Part shown: positions 3,226-48,616 of the stretch, piece after piece | How positions within the stretch are numbered: position 1 is the stretch's first letter | How the letters are laid out: every line of letters starts with the position of its first letter | Origin: Nitzschia sp. DOCU1 | Taxonomy: Eukaryota; Bacillariophyta; Bacillariophyceae; Bacillariales; Bacillariaceae | Direction of reading: 5' to 3' | Assembly (NCBI GenBank): GCA_951394045.1 | Contig: OX595990.1 | Span: 2,596,549-2,660,548 of the forward strand | DNA length: 64,000 nt | Notes under the pieces: model-generated | The model's database searches: none | The model's input: the letters and a program-made list of their open reading frames with translations, nothing else | What the model was told of the DNA's origin: nothing | Position numbers and translations under genes: made by a program

Positions 3226-3628
3226 AGTCAAGAGTCACACGAGTCGAACCGCTCGTACCAGTCGAAGAACTATCCACTCACGACTGTTACTACCTTCGAC
3301 CGTTGTCTCTCCATTTCCAATGTAATGCTCCTCTATGTGCTAGGTGACCTATCGAATGTTCTGGACAGTTGGGACACGCTGATGGGGATTATGCAAGAGT
3401 AAAGCTGTTGAACTACAATGTTTGGAAAGACGAATCTAAGGCGTTGAGAAAGATCGTCTCTCTACATTATTATAGCTAATAACTCATAGTTTGTTTTTGT
3501 CAAGGAAAGCACTCTGTCTACAGTTTTATCACTACTTGAATACGTTGCCTGCGCTCTACTAGTTGGATCGCTATTAGAGCTAAAACAGGCCTCGAAGTAA
3601 CGGACACTGCGTTCCGAACACTTTGACT
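3226..3628 (+). repeat. 5' LTR (403 bp)
   Basis: Starts AGTCAA and ends TTGACT, a perfect 6-bp terminal inverted repeat instead of the usual TG...CA. It is identical to the 3' LTR over its full length by direct comparison. It should contain the element promoter and polyadenylation signals, but I cannot place them individually. Confidence 0.95.
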
Positions 3629-3641
3629 GGTTGCTGAGCCC
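3628..3641 (+). promoter_or_regulatory. Probable tRNA primer-binding site
   Basis: The last LTR base plus the following bases read TGGTTGCTGAGCCC, which begins TGG as expected for complementarity to a tRNA CCA end. It resembles initiator-Met primer sites of plant copia elements only loosely, so I do not name the tRNA. Confidence 0.6.
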
Positions 3642-3862
3642 AAGTAACCTCTAACCCAGAACACGCTTCCCGGGGGACGCCCCACAGCCCAGAAGCCACC
3701 ACTGCAGTCGTTGACCCCGTCAACCCCGATCGATCGCCAGGCCTTGTCCAAGTCGCTGGCAACATTTCCGGATACGAGACTCCCGCTCGTAGCACTACTG
3801 GACCAGACGAAAGCTCCCCAGACTTCTCGCTAGTCAGTAACCTCTCGTACGTCATCGAAGCT

Positions 3863-6800
3863 ATGACCGACGAAGAAGAACAAGGAACCACCACTCCTCC
3901 CGTCGAGGAGTATTCCCCAGCGCGATCTGTCCCTCCGACTCCCGCCGAAGAGATCGCTAACGCCATCACCGATGCGCTGAAAGCCGCCAAGCTCCACAAG
4001 TCCTCCGGACCTGTACTCAAGCCACTTATGGGTGGCGTAAAGAAGGTCGCCGGCCACGATAACAAGTGGGTCGGAGGCAAACCCAAGCGCGATTGGTCCG
4101 GCCTCGACAAGAACGCCGCGACTGACCCCTTGTCTCCCCAGCAGTACCGTCCTGAGCACCTGGACACTGCTACAAAGAGTCATGCTCGCCGTACACAAGG
4201 ACTGAGTGAGAAGTTCAAGCGAACTGGCGACCTGACAACGTTCCAGCACGATGTCTACACTCACCTTAAGGACACTGGGATGGATTCGATCTCCTATGTC
4301 CCTGACCCAGTTGACGATACCCGCATGAGCAACTGTGTCACTGAGTCCTCCCGCTTCGACCTCGAGAGTGTCCGAACCGAGATCATGTTCCAACTCTGCA
4401 AGTACGACGAAGACGACTTCAACAACGACAACGCCGCCACCCAGTTCCTCATGAAGAGCCTTGACCCAATGCTGGCCAAGGACCTCCGCGACGTCTGCGA
4501 AGAAGGCAACCCCTTCCCTATCGTATGGATGCAGCTGATCAAGCTCATCCGTAGCATCTCCATCGAGCGCTACGAAATGAAGAAGACTTACATCAAGAAC
4601 CGCAAGGCCACGATGTACGCTGGCCAGAACCTAGAGGAAATGGCCCGAGACTACCGCGAAGCCGCCAAGGAACTCGACATCGCCGGCCAGTACTCCCACA
4701 GCCTAACTCTCCGCATGATGGACGGCTTCCTTGCCGCTGGAGGCCAAGGAAATGAAGACTTCCGATTCGAGCTGCGAATGAAGAAAGCTGAGCTTGAAAA
4801 AGCCCTGATGAAGGTCGCCTTCATGAGTCCAAGCGAAGCCACTGCATACATGGCCAAGAACGCTTTGACTTACCGTGATATCTGCCGCATCGCGACAGAT
4901 GCCTACAGGAATCAACTGGACAATGGTCGCTGGCCACCTGCCCGCCATGCATCGGACTCCAAGGCCGCCCCCGCCGCCTTCGGAGGCATGGCCTGCAGCG
5001 ATAACCCGGTCACCGCCGCCCAAGTCTATGCCCTGTTCCAACAGTACTCGAATGGAGGGGACAATAGCAAGAAGGAAGGAACTTGCCACAACTGTGGTAA
5101 GGCCGGGCACTGGTCACGCGAATGCCCCGAGCCCAAGAAGCCGAGGGCAGGAGGCCCGCCACGCCGCGGAAAGTTTGACAAGAAACCGCGCCAAGGCAAC
5201 AACAGCAAGCAAGAAGAAGGTTGGAGGAAGAAAGCACCTGGCGCCGGAGAACCCGCCACAAAGGACATGCAAGGACGCAAGTGGCACTGGTGTGCCAAGT
5301 GCACTCGCTGGTCCACCACTCATGGCACCGACGGCCACACTGGTGGCAAGAAAGCCGTCGCCAACCTCCTCATCGCCGAAGATCCCGCCGCTTGGACCTG
5401 CACCCCGGACTTCAGCGAAGTCCTCTCGTCGCTGATCGCACCACCAACCATCCCCTGGTACCTCCATCCCTACGTGCAGATTGTTGAGTACATCCTCATC
5501 GGGTTGATTGGTGGTTTCTGGATGGCATTGGTCCCACGCCACGCCTGGATCCTCATCCCCCAGTTTCTCTGCGCCGCAATCGCCCCCTTCTGGAATGACT
5601 GGTCGCTGCTCCCAGCCCCTTTCCTTTGGCTTCTCGCCTTCCGTGGAATCCGCACCCTCTCCAAACGCCACCGCCTCCGTCACTTCGGCTTCCGAGCCGA
5701 TCTGCCCAAGCCGCCCCCTCGTCCCAAACAACGTGGCGGCAACTCCTTTGGCATCAAGAAGAAGGTTCTTGAGCGCCGCCCCTTCGCCCATCGCCACCGC
5801 CATGAAATCCACGAGGTCATCAAACGCCTCGAGCGTTTCGCATCCGACCTTGACTTCTACAGTCATCGTGGCCACCAGGGCAAAGAGGGAGGAAAGAAGC
5901 AGACCAAGAAATTAAATGCGCGTCGATACAACAACACACCGTTGAAGTTTTCCCCTGATGGCCCCGAATTGACCGTTGGGCAGGCACGCTTGCTCCGTTC
6001 ACCAATCGCATTGTCCTTCCTCAACAGTGACGTCCTGCCGGAGTATCTTTCTTCCGCCGCCCAGGCCCTGCGCGCGGCGCTTACGTCACCGACAGAGACC
6101 TATTCCCTGCTAACTAAGGAAGAGCGCTACCCAGTGATCTTCGACTCTGGTGCAAGCCTCTCGATGTCCTTCTGTCGCAACGACTTCGTTGGCCCCTTGG
6201 AGCCTCCTACCGATGCTAAGACCGTCCAAGGCATTGGTCAGACCAAAGGCCTCGAGATCGTAGGAGTTGGCCATGTGGCCTGGACCTTCGTCGACACTAC
6301 AGGCATGCTGCGCACGCTGAAAATCCCGGCCTACTATGTGCCGGAAGCCAAAGTCCGTCTTTTGAGCACCACCAGCCTACTCCAAGCCTATCCAGACGAA
6401 ACGATTCACATGGAGGGAAGTCGCATGATCCTCAGCGGCAACCCGAACGACCACCTCCAGACCCGCCGCTCTATCGAGATTTTAACGAACTCTCGGACAA
6501 ACCTCCACATTGGCTTCGCATATGCCCCCGACGCCGGCCGAGCCGTCCAGCAAGCATTCCAGGCCGTCGTCACCACAGTTTCATCGAGCAACCACAACTT
6601 GAGTCCAGCTGACAAAGAGCTGCTACGATGGCACTACCACCTCGGCCACTTGGGATTCAGAAGGATTCGCTTTCTGATGCAGTCCGGAGTTCTTGCCCAC
6701 AGCGAAGGCACACGCCGTCTTCAGTCAATGGCGTGCAAAGCTGACCGGAAATTGCTGTGTGCCGCGTGCCAATACGGCAAACAAAGGCGTCGATCGGCAC

Positions 6801-40570: not shown

Positions 40571-40672
40571 ATGAAATTCCGACCGTGTATCGACCTGCAC
40601 AATGGCCAAGTGAAGCAGATAGTCGGCTCGACCCTTACCGACGAGACAGAATCGTCGTCGTTGAACACGAAT
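40571..40672 (+). pseudogene. HIS6: hisA (HIS6) 5' fragment, interrupted by insertion
   Basis: The N-terminal 34 codons of the ProFAR isomerase of histidine biosynthesis: [20 protein letters not shown] then [14 protein letters not shown]. This matches eukaryotic HIS6 proteins exactly where they begin and includes the first-strand catalytic Asp (CIDLHNG). After AAT (40670-40672) similarity stops abruptly and the frame enters unrelated DNA ([10 protein letters not shown]). The missing continuation (F-A-T-D-R-P...) is found 6.25 kb to the right at 46927. No GT donor lies at the break, so this is not a normal exon end. Confidence 0.88.
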
Positions 40673-43600
40673 CCGAGGCCACTCGCTATACCTGGGGGGG
40701 GTGTGGGGGGGGGGATTCAACCTTCCATTTTTTAGGTCGCGTTTTCGTTTTTACTAAGCCCTCACTTATAGAAGAAAAAATATCAGTGGATTTTCATTTA
40801 TCGAATTTCACTTTTTGGAGGCAAGGCATCCTCGCCGGCATCCTCGCATTAGTTACAGAAATGGATGACTTTTGCTGTCGTAATCTACTTTGGGTTAAAT
40901 AAAGTATGACTTTGGTTGTCGTGAGCTGCGTCAAAGACGTCGCTCGGACAGGATTGTGGAGAGAACAAAAAGGTGCTTGTGATTTTGATGGTACAAAAAT
41001 AGAGTGCGCAGTAGTGAGGCGCATTTTGGCTGCGCAGTATGTGCGCTTCCTATTTACTATACATCTACCGTTTCTAAATCTTCGTCGTCTGAATCGTCGT
41101 CTTCTTGGTTGTCATCTTCGTCGGCCAAGATTGACTGTCGTAGTCTTGTCATCATATTCAAATATTCTTCGTCAGGCTGAAAAGAGATATCGTCGGGCAA
41201 GGCAGAGGAGAGGAAAATGCCACTTAGTGTACGAACTCTGGAAAGGACGACATAGGCCCAGTTTCGCATCCGACACCAATCAACCACGACCAGATTGTCG
41301 ACAGATTTGCCTTGTAGTTTGTGGACCGTAGTAGCGTAATTTATCACGGCTGGAAAGTGAACCAGATCGATTGCCAGGCTCTCTCTTTTCTTCTTGCTTG
41401 GGTCAGTACTGCAAGGATATTGGACCTTCATCGTTTTCGATCTCGGATAAAGTTTGAAGATGCCTTCGAATGATGGGGAGTGCATTTTGTCGAAGCGCAA
41501 AACAATATGATCAACATCATCAATAGCCACCGTATTGACCCATCGCCCATGCATTTTCATTGGTTTTAGCTGCGCATTGGGCTTGAATACCGCTTTTTGG
41601 AATGCGCAGCAGGTTCCATTTGCGACTCCGAGTTTCACCGTTATATTCTCGCTCACCATCATCTCGCATCCGTGAAAAAGTGCCAGAAACGGATCTGCTT
41701 TGTAGGTTCTATTCGTGATGTGTGCATCGGAACACCTTTCCCACAACAATTTATGATGAAGCGGAGTGAGAGTCCGCTTATTGACTGACCATTTGCCGGT
41801 ACCTCGAATAATGATGGCGCCTTCTGGGATAGGATCCCCGCGCTGAGATGAGTGAAACTGATTGAGGTAAGTGCGAAAAACACTTGCGTTGATTTCAGAG
41901 CGTTTCTGGTTGGTGAATACCGCATACCGCGCATCCAAATTCTGAGGAATTTTTAGCTTGTTGGGGTATATTTCACGTTCGCGTAATAGGGTGCGCAGAA
42001 GTGCATCATCACCATCTCGTGCTTTACTCATTGCTTCGCCCAAAAGAGGATCGTCCTTGTACCTGTGCGTTCCATCTAGTTCCACCATTTGATTCAAGCA
42101 AAGTTCCCACAATGGACTTGGCTCTCCCTTGAAGATGGGTTCACCACCAATTCCATCCAATTGGCAGAAATCGCCAATGAATACAATTGGTATGTTTCCG
42201 TAAGCATATTGTCGACAATCCGTCAAGCTTTGCAAACGTGCGCTCAAATTGCGCAAAGTTGTCTGAGTTCCAAACGATATCTCGTCAACGATATTCATTC
42301 TAGTGTCGATGAAGGCTTGTTGTTCCTCGAAGGTAGCTGGTTTATTTTTGATCAACCCGAATTGTCGACAAGTTGTATCACCTGCAATCGAAATGGAAGC
42401 AGCACCGGTAATAGCCGTCAACCGAATTGTTGTTTCCGTGAAGTGATGGTGGATGTTGGAACTAAAAGCTTTAGCGTAAGCCATAAGAGAATCCAGAATT
42501 TTTGCTGTATTCGACAGTTAGGACTGTTGCGTTCTCATTATTCAAATAGCAGGATATTGCGACTTACATTTTCCGGCACCGGCTGGACCTGTGATGAACA
42601 TCGTCAGCGGTCCCACCCGCTGTCGTGATCCACACGCCATTCGTTTCAATCGAGCCTTTTCTCTCAAATTGCCAGGACCTTCTGCATCTTTATAGAACGT
42701 CGAGACATAAGTCGAAGCCAAAATTTCGAAGGCACGCTGTTGCTTTTTGTCAAGTTTGTCTCGCCTGCCCCATTGCTTGATGGATGCGCATGTGCCGTTT
42801 GCAAAACTGGTGATATTACCACTTCGTTCTGCAGCAGTGTTTGTAGAATACACTAGCGTGCTTTGGGTTGCGAGTCTGTTTAAGGTTTGCAGTTGGCATT
42901 TGAAACGCTCATTATGGACTGCGCCACCAGTCAATGAAGGCTCTTCTGCAGGAAGTTGATGTTCACTTATGACAGATACGGATTGATGGGGTGCTAAATT
43001 CGCTGTAGTAGACGAAATAGTAACTTCATTGCATGCTCCTTTCTGGGCGACGTTCGAAGGGTTGATAACCTCCGAAACGTAACTTGCATCAACGTTGTCA
43101 GCAGTGTCGAATTCTATGGAAGCTTGCGCTAACACTGATTCGAGATGCTGAGCTTCCATAAAGGGATCTGCTTCTTCCAAGTTTTCTTCTGCTTCTTCAT
43201 CCAGTGTCGTAGTATTCGTCAATTCATTCATTGGTAGTTCAACGCGCAGTGAATTATGAATATTCTGAATATTGTTGCCGTATTGGATTGCCTCTTCCGA
43301 AATGTACTGCGCATACTCGCGAAAAGCCTCTTGATAGCTCTCGTTGTTGCCAAGAAGTTCTTCAAAATTCTGGAATGGCTTGAAAAGCATCAAGAACCTC
43401 CGACAGTATGTTTCCCTGTTCTTGAAAATGGGGGAGGATGACGGCAAATCGCAAGGTTGAAGCAACGATCCACCGAATTCTGAAGAACTGACCAACCAAC
43501 TCCATCCGAAATTGCCCACACGTTTCTCGTTGCATTTGACAATAACATAACGTTGGTGCAGAGGATGGTCGGCAGTGAAATGATAGGCTTTTAGGTCTTG

Positions 43601-46600
43601 AGTTTTTGCCATAGCCGCTGGCACAACATCGGTTTGCCGATAGAACTTAAAAAAGGTCCAGTCCTTCAATCGGGCATCACGGTAGATATAATTCATAGCA
43701 GTATGACACCAAGTCGCTTTCCCGTTAACCATTCGCATCACACCAAGTGAATCTTTACCAAGCAGCCATGATTCCGATGAAACGACGGGTATAGCAACAT
43801 TAGGATGCGAGAAACGGAAGCGTGATTCTCGCAGAGCAAGATAATGCGCCATTGGCGCAGCGCAAATGTGTGCGTTCACGTGGGCATAAACTCCGGCTAA
43901 TAAGCGACGGAACCCTTCATGACGCGGTGTTCTTTCATTGGAATCCTGCTGTTCTTGGGCATTTATCAGATTCGAAATAACTTCAGCAACTTTGGCGTAA
44001 GCTTGCCGTTCTTCCTTTTGCTGACCTTTAGCTTGATATCCTGTGACATAGAAAACGCATGGTCCATTCATTGCGACTAACACGTTCGTGTTGTACCCGA
44101 GAGATTTGGTCAGAATTGGAGAATGCGTATTCATGAAAGCATCTTGTACGTTTCGAGCAGGGGTGAACCGAAACATTTCATACTCGGTAGATTCACCGAA
44201 CACGTTAAACCACAAATCCAAACAACCTTTAGTTTTCAACATATCCTTCTCGCACGTTTCCTCTGGTAGATTGAAACAACATTCGCAGCCTTTTGCGAAA
44301 CAGCGGTTGACATGAACACAACAGTGGGTATTATGGAATACGCTTGACATAAAGTAGCGACGTCCAGTTTGCTTAGGTTCCTGTGTGCACCAATCAGTGT
44401 TCATTTGTTCGTTGAACAAAAAATGATCAATTCGTTTGTTCTTGTCAGGAAATTCGTAGTTGTCTGAGTTCATAACGAAGTTGATTGCATTAGCATTCAC
44501 GTCGTCGATGCGCAGCTTATTTCCACACGTGTGGCACGTTGCGATGTGACCGTTGTGTTCTCGACATTTGCGCTTATGCCGCATTTCTCGCAGTACTTGT
44601 TTTGGTACAGGTGTGATGTTTCGTTCCTTTTGTCGTCTTGTAATATAAGACTGTGCATCCCTTTTCCTCTTTCGTACTCGTTGCTTAGGATTGCATTTTG
44701 GACACTGAAAAACACGGTAGTCTGAAAAGATCCCAGATTCCAGATCTTCATCTTGGAAAAGCTTTGCGCTGGCTATTTTGCCACAAAATGTAAGTAGTTC
44801 CTTTTTTGCAATCGATCTTGCGGATTTCGACACACTATCATCTTGACATTGCACGTTGTGCATTAACTTTCCCCAATCCTTAATAAACAGCAGAAAGTGT
44901 CCATGAAGCGTTTTTCTTCCTTGTTCTTCTGTCGCCAAGCACCACGCAGTCAACTCACCAAAGATTCCCGGTCCTTTAGCTTTATGCTCCTTGCAATCCC
45001 ATTGGAGCAGGTGTTCGATCACAAGAGTCGTGATACGATCGTATTCTTCGGCACAGAAACCAGGGTAACTGTTGCGAGTTGTCTGACGTTCCAGATATTG
45101 TTCATATATCAGTTCGTTTGACATGGCGTCTATGACTTCTGGCGGTTCATACTCAAAACGGTTCTCTTGAGGTAGGGCATAGCATGAGATGCGATAGTTG
45201 CGTTTATCGTCCGGGGTCAACGTAAGAAAGACAGCGGGAAGACCGAATTCCATAACGTATCCAAAATATTCGCGGCGCGCTTTTTGAGCGGCTTCATTAG
45301 TATGTGGCAAACTTCCGCATGTAGCATGAATGGATCGCAAGAACTGTGCGTTTCGCTGAGATGAATATTGTCTTGGATCATTAGACCTCACTGCTCTAAT
45401 CCCACTTTGTAGTTCATCCACCGTCATGGCACCAACTTGCTCTGCGAACGAGGTTCCTCGAGGATGTGAAAAATTCGCTCGTAAGCAAGTATCTTTGAAT
45501 ATCAGCTCTTTCATGAGGAGATTGAAGACAATCAATATGAACATTGCCCCATGGAACGCACGGTTACCAGATTGTAAATAACGGCGCAGTGTTTTTGTTT
45601 GATTCCTCTTGAAAGCAGTCGGAACTTGAAAAATCTTTGACAGCTGGCCCAATGCCGGATCTCCGGGTAACCCAGAATGACCGTACGGAAATATCAGAGG
45701 AAACGCACGTGAAACAGTGTCGTTGTTGTAGTCCACGACAATATCTGCACTAGGTCGTGCATGAATTCTTGCGTTGAAATTACCATTCTCAAACCGTTCC
45801 ATAACGAATTTGCGAAATTCTTCCTGATTTGCGAAACCACCATTCAAAGTAGTGGGATTGGAGCCATCTGGAAGTACGACTGTGACACTAACATGATTCT
45901 CCAGCACGACGTCCTGAGTTTGAAGAAGGTCTTCGTCGTCACTTTAAATGTTACTTGTTGTCAGCTTCATAATAAGTCGAATATTGGACAATAATTGACT
46001 GCGCACTCCACTTACCAATTTTGTGTCTCAATATATGGTTCCGGAACCGTGTCGGGGATGACAATATTTGCATAGTGACAGTTGTTCGCTTTCAACCAAA
46101 GGAGTGCGCGCTTCACTTTTGCGCCGTCCACCATTACTTGTTTTAACACTGTTGCTCGTTGATCAGTTGTGAAAGGCCCACACAACACGACTAGCAATTG
46201 TCCATTCATTCCCGCACTGTTGAGGTTGTCAATATGCGATACAATCGGTCCAGGTTTGTGATCGTAAAAAGTATGCCAGCCTTGAATATGCTGATGACAC
46301 CCTCCGAAAAAGATCCAACTCTGGCAAACGGTGCGCACTGTACTAACCAACGCCAGTTCCACTTCGTTCAGACAAGTCAGTTCAGGTGGCGGGTCGCCAA
46401 CAAGATATCCCATGATTAGTGCGTCGTCAGGCGGCCACCGTGTCTTCGGACTTTTATCAGAATTGTCTTCCAAATGCTTTTTGCAGCAATTGCAGATGGC
46501 TATGCGGTCCTGCAACTTGTTGTTGTTGTCGTCGTTGTGATTTCAGCTTGCAATTCAACGAATTATGACCTTTCGCACAAAAACCCGATCCATCGATGTC

Positions 46601-46926
46601 AGAATTTTCCACCACTCCACGCCGGCCGTTTTCACTACGCAACTGATGGCTGCCTACATATTTCGAGCATGCCAATAGCATACCACACGCGAGCTGTTGA
46701 AGTCAGCGCTTCCCAACTGACGCTTGCGCAGCCTCAATAAATGCGATTCCCCCACCATTCACCCTCATCCAGGCACGCAAGTATGTTCCGCATATACGTT
46801 ACTTACACGCGCGCCACACCAGCCATCCTCGACGCCCACCAGTTCCGCCATCACGCGTGCCAGCCACTCCCGGCATGATGCCCACAGAACCCAGCCACGT
46901 GTCCAGGCCGAGCCCTTCTTTGCAAT
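40673..46926. mobile_element. About 6.25 kb insertion splitting hisA, carrying a Helitron
   Basis: Everything between the two hisA halves. The triplet AAT occurs at both borders (40670-40672 and 46924-46926), so the exact ends are ambiguous by up to 3 bp. Most of the insert is a minus-strand Helitron Rep-helicase gene. Terminal TC and CTRR signatures of canonical Helitrons are not obvious; helentron/Helitron2-type elements lack these and often target TT or AT sites, which the AATTTT target would fit. An imperfect inverted sequence lies inside both borders (41018-41040 and 46721-46745). Confidence 0.85.
41057..46516 (-). CDS. Helitron Rep-helicase transposase (N-terminus uncertain)
   Basis: Rolling-circle transposase read as three exons: up to 46016, 45941-42568 and 42504-41057. 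The introns (74 and 63 nt) restore frame; the second falls inside the Walker A loop, giving GPAGAGKSKILDS after splicing. The first exon holds a C-x2-C motif (CNCC) and a DUF6570-like region (ALIMGYLVGDPPPELTCLNE). The middle exon holds the Helitron-like N and HUH nuclease region, with AVFLTLTPDD and the metal-binding KTLHGHFLLF (about 44897-44905), and a candidate Tyr region near 43900 (AGVYAHVNAH). The last exon is a PIF1-type helicase: IVDEISF, PIVFIGDFCQLD, HKLQGKSVDNLVVV and VLSRVRTLSGIFL, ending in an acidic tail. The first exon opens without a clear ATG, so at least one upstream exon or start is unresolved; I set 46516 as the provisional limit. Confidence 0.87.
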
Positions 46927-47613
46927 TTTGCCACCGATCGACCAGCGTCCGACTATGCCAAAATGTACGAGCGGGATCAATTGACGGGAGGCCACGTGAT
47001 CATGCTGGGGCCTGGGAATACTGAAGCTGCGACATCAGCCCTCAAAGCGTACCCGAAAGGTCTCCAAGTAGGTGGAGGCATCAATGATACAAACGCGTTG
47101 GAGTGGCTCGACGCTGGGGCGTCGCATGTAATTGTCACGTCCTTTGTGTTTGCGAATGGACAAATTCACATGGAACGCCTCAAGAATCTTGTTGAAATTT
47201 GCGGCAAAGAACGGTTGGTCTTGGATCTGTCTTGTCGGCGGAAACCAGATTCCGATGATAACGACTACTATGTCGTGACCAACCGATGGCAGTCGTTTAC
47301 GGACTACAAGGTCACGCCCGAGAATTTGAAAGAGCTCGCGAACTATTGCGATGAGTTTCTAGTGCATGGAGTGGATGTTGAAGGAAAACAGTGCGGTATT
47401 CTGGAAGATCTTGTAGAACTTCTGGGCGAACATTCACCGATACCTGTCACCTATGCTGGCGGCGTGCGATCGCTGGAAGATATGGAACTCGTTCGAAAGC
47501 TAGGAAGGGATAAGGTGGACGCAACGATTGGAAGTGCCCTGGATTGCTTCGGAGGGGCGCTAAAGTACGATGAAGTTGTCGCATGGCACAAGGCCCAGGA
47601 GGCACAATGTTGA
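46927..47613 (+). pseudogene. HIS6: hisA (HIS6) 3' fragment, interrupted by insertion
   Basis: The remaining 228 codons of ProFAR isomerase, from FATDRPASDYAKMYERD to the stop at 47613. Diagnostic segments: GGHVIMLGPGN, LQVGGGINDTNALEWLDAG, ASHVIVTSFVF, RLVLDLSCRR, EFLVHGVDVEGKQCG, VTYAGGVRSLEDMELV and DATIGSALDCFGG. It is in phase with the 34-codon fragment at 40571-40672; together they give about 262 residues, the usual eukaryotic length. The frame upstream of 46927 runs back through unrelated DNA to a stop and contains no start with HisA character. An ATG at 46963 could only make a protein lacking the first strand and its catalytic Asp. Confidence 0.9.
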
Positions 47614-47686: not shown

Positions 47687-48601
47687 CTAGTTATGATTCT
47701 TGAGGAGAGCCACCAGTTCGTCTTGTGATTTGCTTTTGTCATCGGCAAATATTAGTTCCACAAACGCAGAAATAAAATCGTCTTGGGTGAGATTCCCATC
47801 ATTGTCCTTGGCGAGTTTCATGACGCTTTTTCTAGCTTCATTTGCTCCCTTTGCCAGAGTTTTGTCATATTTTGCGACTTTTCCCACCCACGTCCGAAGA
47901 ATGTTGTCCCAGTTATGACTTTGATTTTGCATTGTCAATTGGCGGTCGGCTTCCTGTTGTTCTTCGTCGGCCTTTTCGGGTAGGTCCACAATTTCAGGGC
48001 ACGATTCCACAAAGGCAAGTATATCTCGAAGGGGCGTCTCATCGACCACTGAAATCCAATTGCTTTCCCAAGCTGCACGCGGGAGCTCCATGGTTTCATT
48101 TATTTTCTCGAGGACCGAATCGGGAACCTGCCGTTGTCGATCTCGATTGCGTTCCATGCATTTTTCCAGTGGAGCTTGCACCCAAATAATTCCGAAACTA
48201 ATTGGCTTATAATTCAGCAGCAAGCGATGAATTTGCTTTCTCATTCCTCGTAAATGAAAATTATCGTCCAGCAAAACCAGCAATGGAGGATGAGAATGGT
48301 CATTCGACGTCACCGCAGCAAATTGCTCTCGCAAACGTTCCTCGAGCTGATGCACAGCAACCTGACGAGCTTGATTCCATGCCTCCCGCCGTGCTTCTTC
48401 TGTTTTTTGCGAAACGATTGAGTCTTCAAGTTCATCGTACTCCAAGTGAATCGCTCGTCGGCCAGTCCCCTCGCCTCGTCGGCAATACTCTTCCTTCAAG
48501 CGACGTGCCAACGTACTTTTTCCGCTTGCGGGAAGTCCAGCCAGCAGGATCACGGTTGTCGATCGACTGCCATTGACTGCTTGTGATGCGTTTCCCTCCA
48601 T
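47687..48601 (-). CDS. PSTK: L-seryl-tRNA(Sec) kinase (PSTK)
   Basis: Phosphorylates Ser-tRNA(Sec) so that SepSecS can make selenocysteinyl-tRNA. About 304 residues, single exon; I prefer the start MEGNASQA, while an ATG 15 bases upstream is possible. Visible features: the P-loop LLAGLPASGKST, the family motif LLVLLDDNFHLRGMRKQIH, the substrate-binding segment APLEKCMERNRDR...VPDSVLEKI, and the helical C-terminal tRNA-binding part with NILRTWVGKVAKYDKTL. KTI12, a related ATPase, has a different C-terminus, so PSTK is preferred. It implies that this diatom makes selenoproteins, as others do. Convergent with hisA, 73 bp apart. Confidence 0.83.
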   Translation of the reverse strand: MEGNASQAVNGSRSTTVILLAGLPASGKSTLARRLKEEYCRRGEGTGRRAIHLEYDELEDSIVSQKTEEARREAWNQARQVAVHQLEERLREQFAAVTSNDHSHPPLLVLLDDNFHLRGMRKQIHRLLLNYKPISFGIIWVQAPLEKCMERNRDRQRQVPDSVLEKINETMELPRAAWESNWISVVDETPLRDILAFVESCPEIVDLPEKADEEQQEADRQLTMQNQSHNWDNILRTWVGKVAKYDKTLAKGANEARKSVMKLAKDNDGNLTQDDFISAFVELIFADDKSKSQDELVALLKNHN

Positions 48602-48616
48602 TGTCAGGGCGTGCAA

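Follow-up and report, generated by a model that had tools for sequence, protein, structure and literature searches.

How does a diatom come to carry a histidine-biosynthesis gene that is interrupted by more than six kilobases of other DNA, and how could it live with the result? The question arises from a stretch of 64,000 nucleotides of Nitzschia sp. DOCU1, here called the window, in which a first-pass annotation reported the gene hisA (HIS6) as cut in two by a Helitron-bearing insertion. The assembly searched comprises 52.08 Mb in 63 contigs, designated below by C and a number; the window lies on C6. Positions without a contig designation are those of the window, and its features are collected in Table 1.

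A hisA gene in two parts

The two pieces had been described as lying on the same strand in compatible phase and having a normal summed length, and this description is right: joined, they translate into 262 residues, the 3' part beginning FATDRPASDYAK... and reading to 47613. The joined product matches at least 7,997 proteins. The best relative shares 91% identity with the query across 99% of the query's length, and the close relatives include the diatoms Nitzschia, Pseudo-nitzschia and other Bacillariaceae. In Pfam, the downstream part matches PF00977 with E=1.3e-23, and the 34-residue first part alone has no match. Whether that first part could be something other than hisA was a suggested check; it corresponds to the N-terminus of diatom HisA, with almost every residue agreeing. 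The gene thus combines PF00977 with an N-terminal stretch conserved among diatom relatives, as a eukaryotic HisA does, and sequence comparison confirms the two stretches as parts of one hisA gene rather than a chance resemblance.

The break was said to fall within a TNF motif, and it does. An 18-row HisA alignment, the query among its rows, shows no variation at T33, N34 or F35. TNF occurs in 98 of the 120 relatives listed, with a different residue ahead of NF in the other 22; N34 and F35, the residues that meet at the break, are neighbours in every one of the 120. Adjoining hisA on the minus strand (47687-48616) is an open frame that matches the KTI12-like and AAA_33 kinase families in Pfam.

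Table 1. Positions in the window of the hisA parts, the inserted element and the features within it
Feature	Position	Strand	Remarks
hisA (HIS6) 5' part	40571..40671	+	Start codon to second base of codon 34; holds first beta strand
Helitron, 6,254 bp	40672..46925	+	TCCGAGG...CTTTGCAA; between A and T; borders from other copies
Possible terminal hairpin CGAG-GCCA-CTCG	40674..40685	+	Just inside TC end; read from sequence
First in-frame stop reading from hisA start into insert	40733..40735	+	54-residue product
Rep/helicase last exon	41057..42504	-	PIF1-like helicase
Rep/helicase intron	42505..42567	-	GTAAGT...ACAG
Rep/helicase middle exon	42568..45941	-	Helitron_like_N (PF14214); acceptor picked by longest open frame
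Rep/helicase first intron	46015-45942	-	Acceptor picked by longest open frame
Rep/helicase 5'-most modelled exon	46016..46515	-	DUF6570 (PF20209); true 5' end may differ; scanned protein starts at 46491
hisA 3' part	46926..47613	+	Last base of codon 34 to stop; PF00977
Open frame from first in-frame ATG past insert	46963..47613	+	216 aa; without first beta strand

Borders and relatives of the inserted element

DNA searches of the assembly with the two ends of the element return many near-identical copies, in which the similarity ends at identical bases. At least 17 members have both ends, 16 of them paired by their ends and one, on C1, added; the end searches scored the best 40 of 43 and all 19 candidates, respectively, so further members may exist. 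Copies of greater age, at 83-96% identity, are present as well. The members measure 6,254 bp (four), 2,491 bp (five), 6,632 and 4,975 bp (two each) and 4,986, 5,874, 6,729 and 2,691 bp (one each). Interiors were read for nine of the 17, from the window and eight fetched stretches, and the ends only for the remainder.

All 17 members share their first 24 bases (TCCGAGG...) and their last 24 (...TTTGCAA). By a scripted recount, the base preceding the element is A in 15 members and G in two, and the base following it is T in every one. The first-pass annotation had ended the upstream part of hisA at 40672. The two T residues in question (40672 and 46926) can stand in for each other, and the other copies place the insert at 40672-46925; the proposed size of 6,254 bp is therefore kept and the borders are refined. 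The split is Helitron-borne, as had been reported, with the difference that the whole insert, from one end to the other, is the Helitron.

Several insertion sites have unbroken relatives, which confirm these borders. At the C1 site, the unbroken counterpart (C1:1455505-1455724) matches at 219 of 220 bases, the sole difference lying 28 bases ahead of the junction. Identity across the surrounding blocks is 99.3-100%, and in the unbroken copy two of these are separated by 1.4 kb of different sequence. For the site at C6:1670267, which is within a repeat, at least 12 other places at 98-100% run across the junction, and the three that were checked are exact over 60 bases. At both sites, taking the element to start with T, the target keeps every base and acquires no extra one. 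Because the element does start with T, and T follows it in all 17 members, duplication of a single T is indistinguishable from none. More distant unbroken relatives exist for the sites at C9:3796 (84%) and on C35 (81%), and for C3:3578296 there is one at no more than 91%, with a left side of only 36 bases. In total, an unbroken relative was found for at least five of the 16 other sites, among the best 40 of 89 and 40 of 42 candidates. All lie elsewhere in the one assembly, and none is a demonstrated allele that would make the family heterozygous. The C1 pair belongs to a duplicated segment (C1:1442687-1447886 and C1:1452000-1455949), one copy with the Helitron and one without, the insertion points being 10.75 kb apart. 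Two of the places resembling C6:1670267 lie 6.5 kb apart on a single contig, share 156 identical bases and might be long terminal repeats.

The insertion in hisA is young, because its 6,254 bases recur without a change in two other full-length copies, on C9 and C4; the C2 copy differs at two. For Phaeodactylum, PMC6604790 gives a mutation rate of 4.77e-10 per site per generation. As this copy has no private change in its 6,254 bases, that rate would put its age at no more than about one million generations (a loose 95% bound), presuming that the rate applies here and that gene conversion has not homogenised the copies.

Other members differ in structure. Two of them (C3:3573322-3578296 and C35:4809-9783) have two head-to-tail copies of most of the element's first 0.9 kb, and match positions indicate apparently three in another (C9:1608043-1613916). 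Just inside the TC end is a run of G (40694-40714, G8 TGT G10); it is kept in the 16 left ends compared, one of which has an additional repeat of it. The 6,632-bp and 4,975-bp members that were read contain interiors of about 3.5 and 2.7 kb, respectively, that are not shared with the 6,254-bp element. In the 6,632-bp member on C3, this alternative interior (3266-6734 of the C3 stretch) has open frames, the longest of 628 codons, that match nothing in Pfam. Captured host genes were considered for the alternative interior of the C3 relatives and rejected, the five frames scanned having no match in Pfam.

Widespread breakage of genes by the family was also rejected. Among the 17 sites, only hisA was recognised as an insertion within coding sequence, from a comparison of 20 flanking frames at the other 16 sites with Pfam, the joined site being read across for hisA only. 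At C6:1670267 the insertion precedes the first in-frame ATG of an alpha/beta hydrolase, and at C2:2272467 it precedes the likely start of a GHMP kinase, for which an earlier in-frame ATG is present.

A Helitron resembling Helitron2

The three modelled exons, on the strand opposite hisA, join into an open frame 1,765 residues long. A model begun at an ATG further upstream yields no long frame. Rep (HUH) and PIF1-like helicase occur in this one spliced frame, as in the Helitron superfamily: PF14214 matches with E=2e-15 and AAA_30 (PF13604) with E=1.2e-6, AAA_19 also matches, and the PIF1 match (PF05970, E=2.1e-5) is just under its cut-off. Residues 505-507 are HGH, which we take to be the Rep (HUH) signature. 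As for the two catalytic tyrosines expected of a Helitron Rep, the single Y-x3-Y pattern, at residue 790, lies beyond the PF14214 match (280-510) and was located by pattern rather than by alignment to proven Rep proteins. Endonuclease domains, a feature of Helentrons, give no Pfam match in this frame, even with E values up to 0.1 admitted. The element could be autonomous. Among 4,499 candidates, the middle exon has 118 relatives, the best of them 56% identical. One DUF6570/Helitron protein is attributed to a cyanobacterial metagenome bin; our guess is eukaryotic contamination of the bin.

From its sequence, we would class the element as a Helitron resembling Helitron2, with non-canonical ends. 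The Rep/helicase, the insertion between A and T, the lack of any longer target duplication and the 5'-TC all point to a Helitron. It shares with canonical Helitrons (Helitron1) the 5'-TC (all 17 members), insertion between A and T (A before 15, T after all 17) and the Rep with PIF1-like helicase. Unlike them, it ends in GCAA rather than CTRR (again in all 17), and its gene runs opposite to the TC-to-GCAA orientation. Non-canonical ends and a Rep/helicase gene in inverted orientation have been described in some Helitron2-like elements (PMC5148889).

Helitron2 elements (Fusarium FoHeli, Chlamydomonas Helitron2) have features also seen here: no CTRR end and a Rep/helicase without endonuclease. 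Helitron2 termini carry hairpins; the possible hairpin at the TC end here (Table 1) is not the fold of minimum energy that RNA parameters give for the first 60 bases. Helitron2 differs in ending with ATTTT instead of GCAA. It has asymmetric terminal inverted repeats; here, the terminal 200 bases share no exact inverted word of 8-14 bases, and shorter or imperfect repeats could remain. According to PMC5148889, FoHeli1 likewise starts with TC, the start of FoHeli2 is variable, and both are said to insert between TNAT and T, whereas our element inserts between A and T. The Helitron-Helentron intermediate of Phytophthora infestans (PMC4067079) is similar in inserting between A and T without duplication and in beginning with TT, as does our element in gene orientation; it differs in its 3' end, which is CTAG there and CGGA here in gene orientation.

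Consequences for hisA and for the diatom

Reading from the hisA start codon runs into a stop shortly inside the insert. Because translation halts after 54 residues and the downstream frame is without the first beta strand, the interrupted allele should be null. That strand presumably holds one of two catalytic aspartates, as in bacterial HisA.

A DNA search with the joined flanks finds no uninterrupted hisA in the 52-Mb assembly, and searches with the C-terminal protein and with the family (10 candidates scored in the latter) find no second hisA. The only other PF00977 gene among those 10, at C3:2068150-2069130, is taken to be hisF. A paralogue had been offered as one means of survival, and an uninterrupted allele in the same genome as something to look for; three kinds of search thus find no paralogue in the assembly, and no such allele is present there. 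Public prokaryote contigs contain no uninterrupted hisA junction, as expected.

Four other pathway genes are present, as expected of a retained pathway. They were sought as four families (hisG, hisD, hisB and hisF) and recognised by family match. Because hisG (profile positions 2-120 of 158), hisD (107-410 of 411), hisB (two matches side by side) and hisF are each found at one place, the assembly appears to hold one haplotype.

We consider it likely that the insertion is a recent null in one hisA allele of a diploid, the other allele being uninterrupted and outside the assembly. A recently active Helitron family would have copied a full-length element, presumably by a rolling-circle mechanism, between the A and T in codon 34 of hisA, keeping the target bases. 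This species being presumably diploid, the strain would be heterozygous and survive on its uninterrupted second allele, and an assembly that displays one haplotype only would lack that allele. Of the ways out listed in the first-pass annotation, this one is the most likely. In diploid Phaeodactylum, PMC7431573 reports, Cas9 knockouts of another histidine-pathway gene gave histidine-requiring strains that were complemented by a plasmid copy.

It is unlikely that the insertion is instead fixed in the strain, which would then be a natural histidine auxotroph dependent on bacteria or would splice out the 6.2-kb Helitron via element-borne sites. An auxotroph, with the insertion brought to homozygosity through mitotic recombination, selfing or haploidy and its histidine coming from the medium or co-cultured bacteria, would agree with the lack of an intact hisA in the assembly, and PMC7431573 reports loss of heterozygosity at Cas9-edited loci of the Phaeodactylum auxotrophs. 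Such a strain would, however, require a constant supply of histidine; the four other pathway genes are present, and the youth of the element fits heterozygosity without proving it. We find this reading quite improbable.

Intron removal, another of the earlier suggestions, would leave hisA functional with a short insertion. Enumeration of GT/AG pairs yields nine that keep the frame open, of which four retain all of codons 1-34 (donors 40701 or 40703, acceptors 46887-46912, products of 276-285 residues). Their donors, GTGTGG and GTGGGG, sit in the G-run, unlike the GTAAGT of both modelled Rep/helicase introns; the intron would measure about 6.2 kb, and the products gain 14-23 residues between N34 and F35, which no relative listed separates. 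The annotation's remark that there is no splice donor at the break is thus sound, in that no good donor is near and only poor ones keep the frame open. These poor donors and extra residues also disfavour the escape by splicing: removal of the element is unlikely, and a working enzyme made in this way very much so. As for an assembly error, identical element copies elsewhere are the usual setting for mis-threading and the interior could in principle be swapped, but a joining of unrelated contigs or of Helitron copies is scarcely credible when hisA abuts the element at exactly complementary points of one codon and the element ends match those at 16 other sites; mis-joins arising independently at the two borders would not fall in register.

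The phenomenon is an ordinary one, a young transposon insertion in a gene; what sets it apart is its precision and the gene that it struck. Helitron insertion mutations are known in plant genes (maize sh2, Ipomoea DFR-B). In each of those a Helitron breaks a single gene, as here; the host is now a diatom and the gene hisA. A literature search on Helitrons in diatoms, a weak test restricted to the titles and abstract openings listed, found no Helitron breaking a diatom gene among them. The locus offers a base-resolved case of a recently active diatom Helitron family breaking a core biosynthetic gene, and the family supplies identical full-length copies, short derivatives and unbroken targets for the study of algal Helitron ends and mobility. 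It is also a warning that an essential gene can look broken in a one-haplotype assembly. Elsewhere in the pathway, the hisB place (C6:1278319-1279461) consists of two adjoining full-length matches to imidazoleglycerol-phosphate dehydratase (PF00475), each in a 437-aa open frame.
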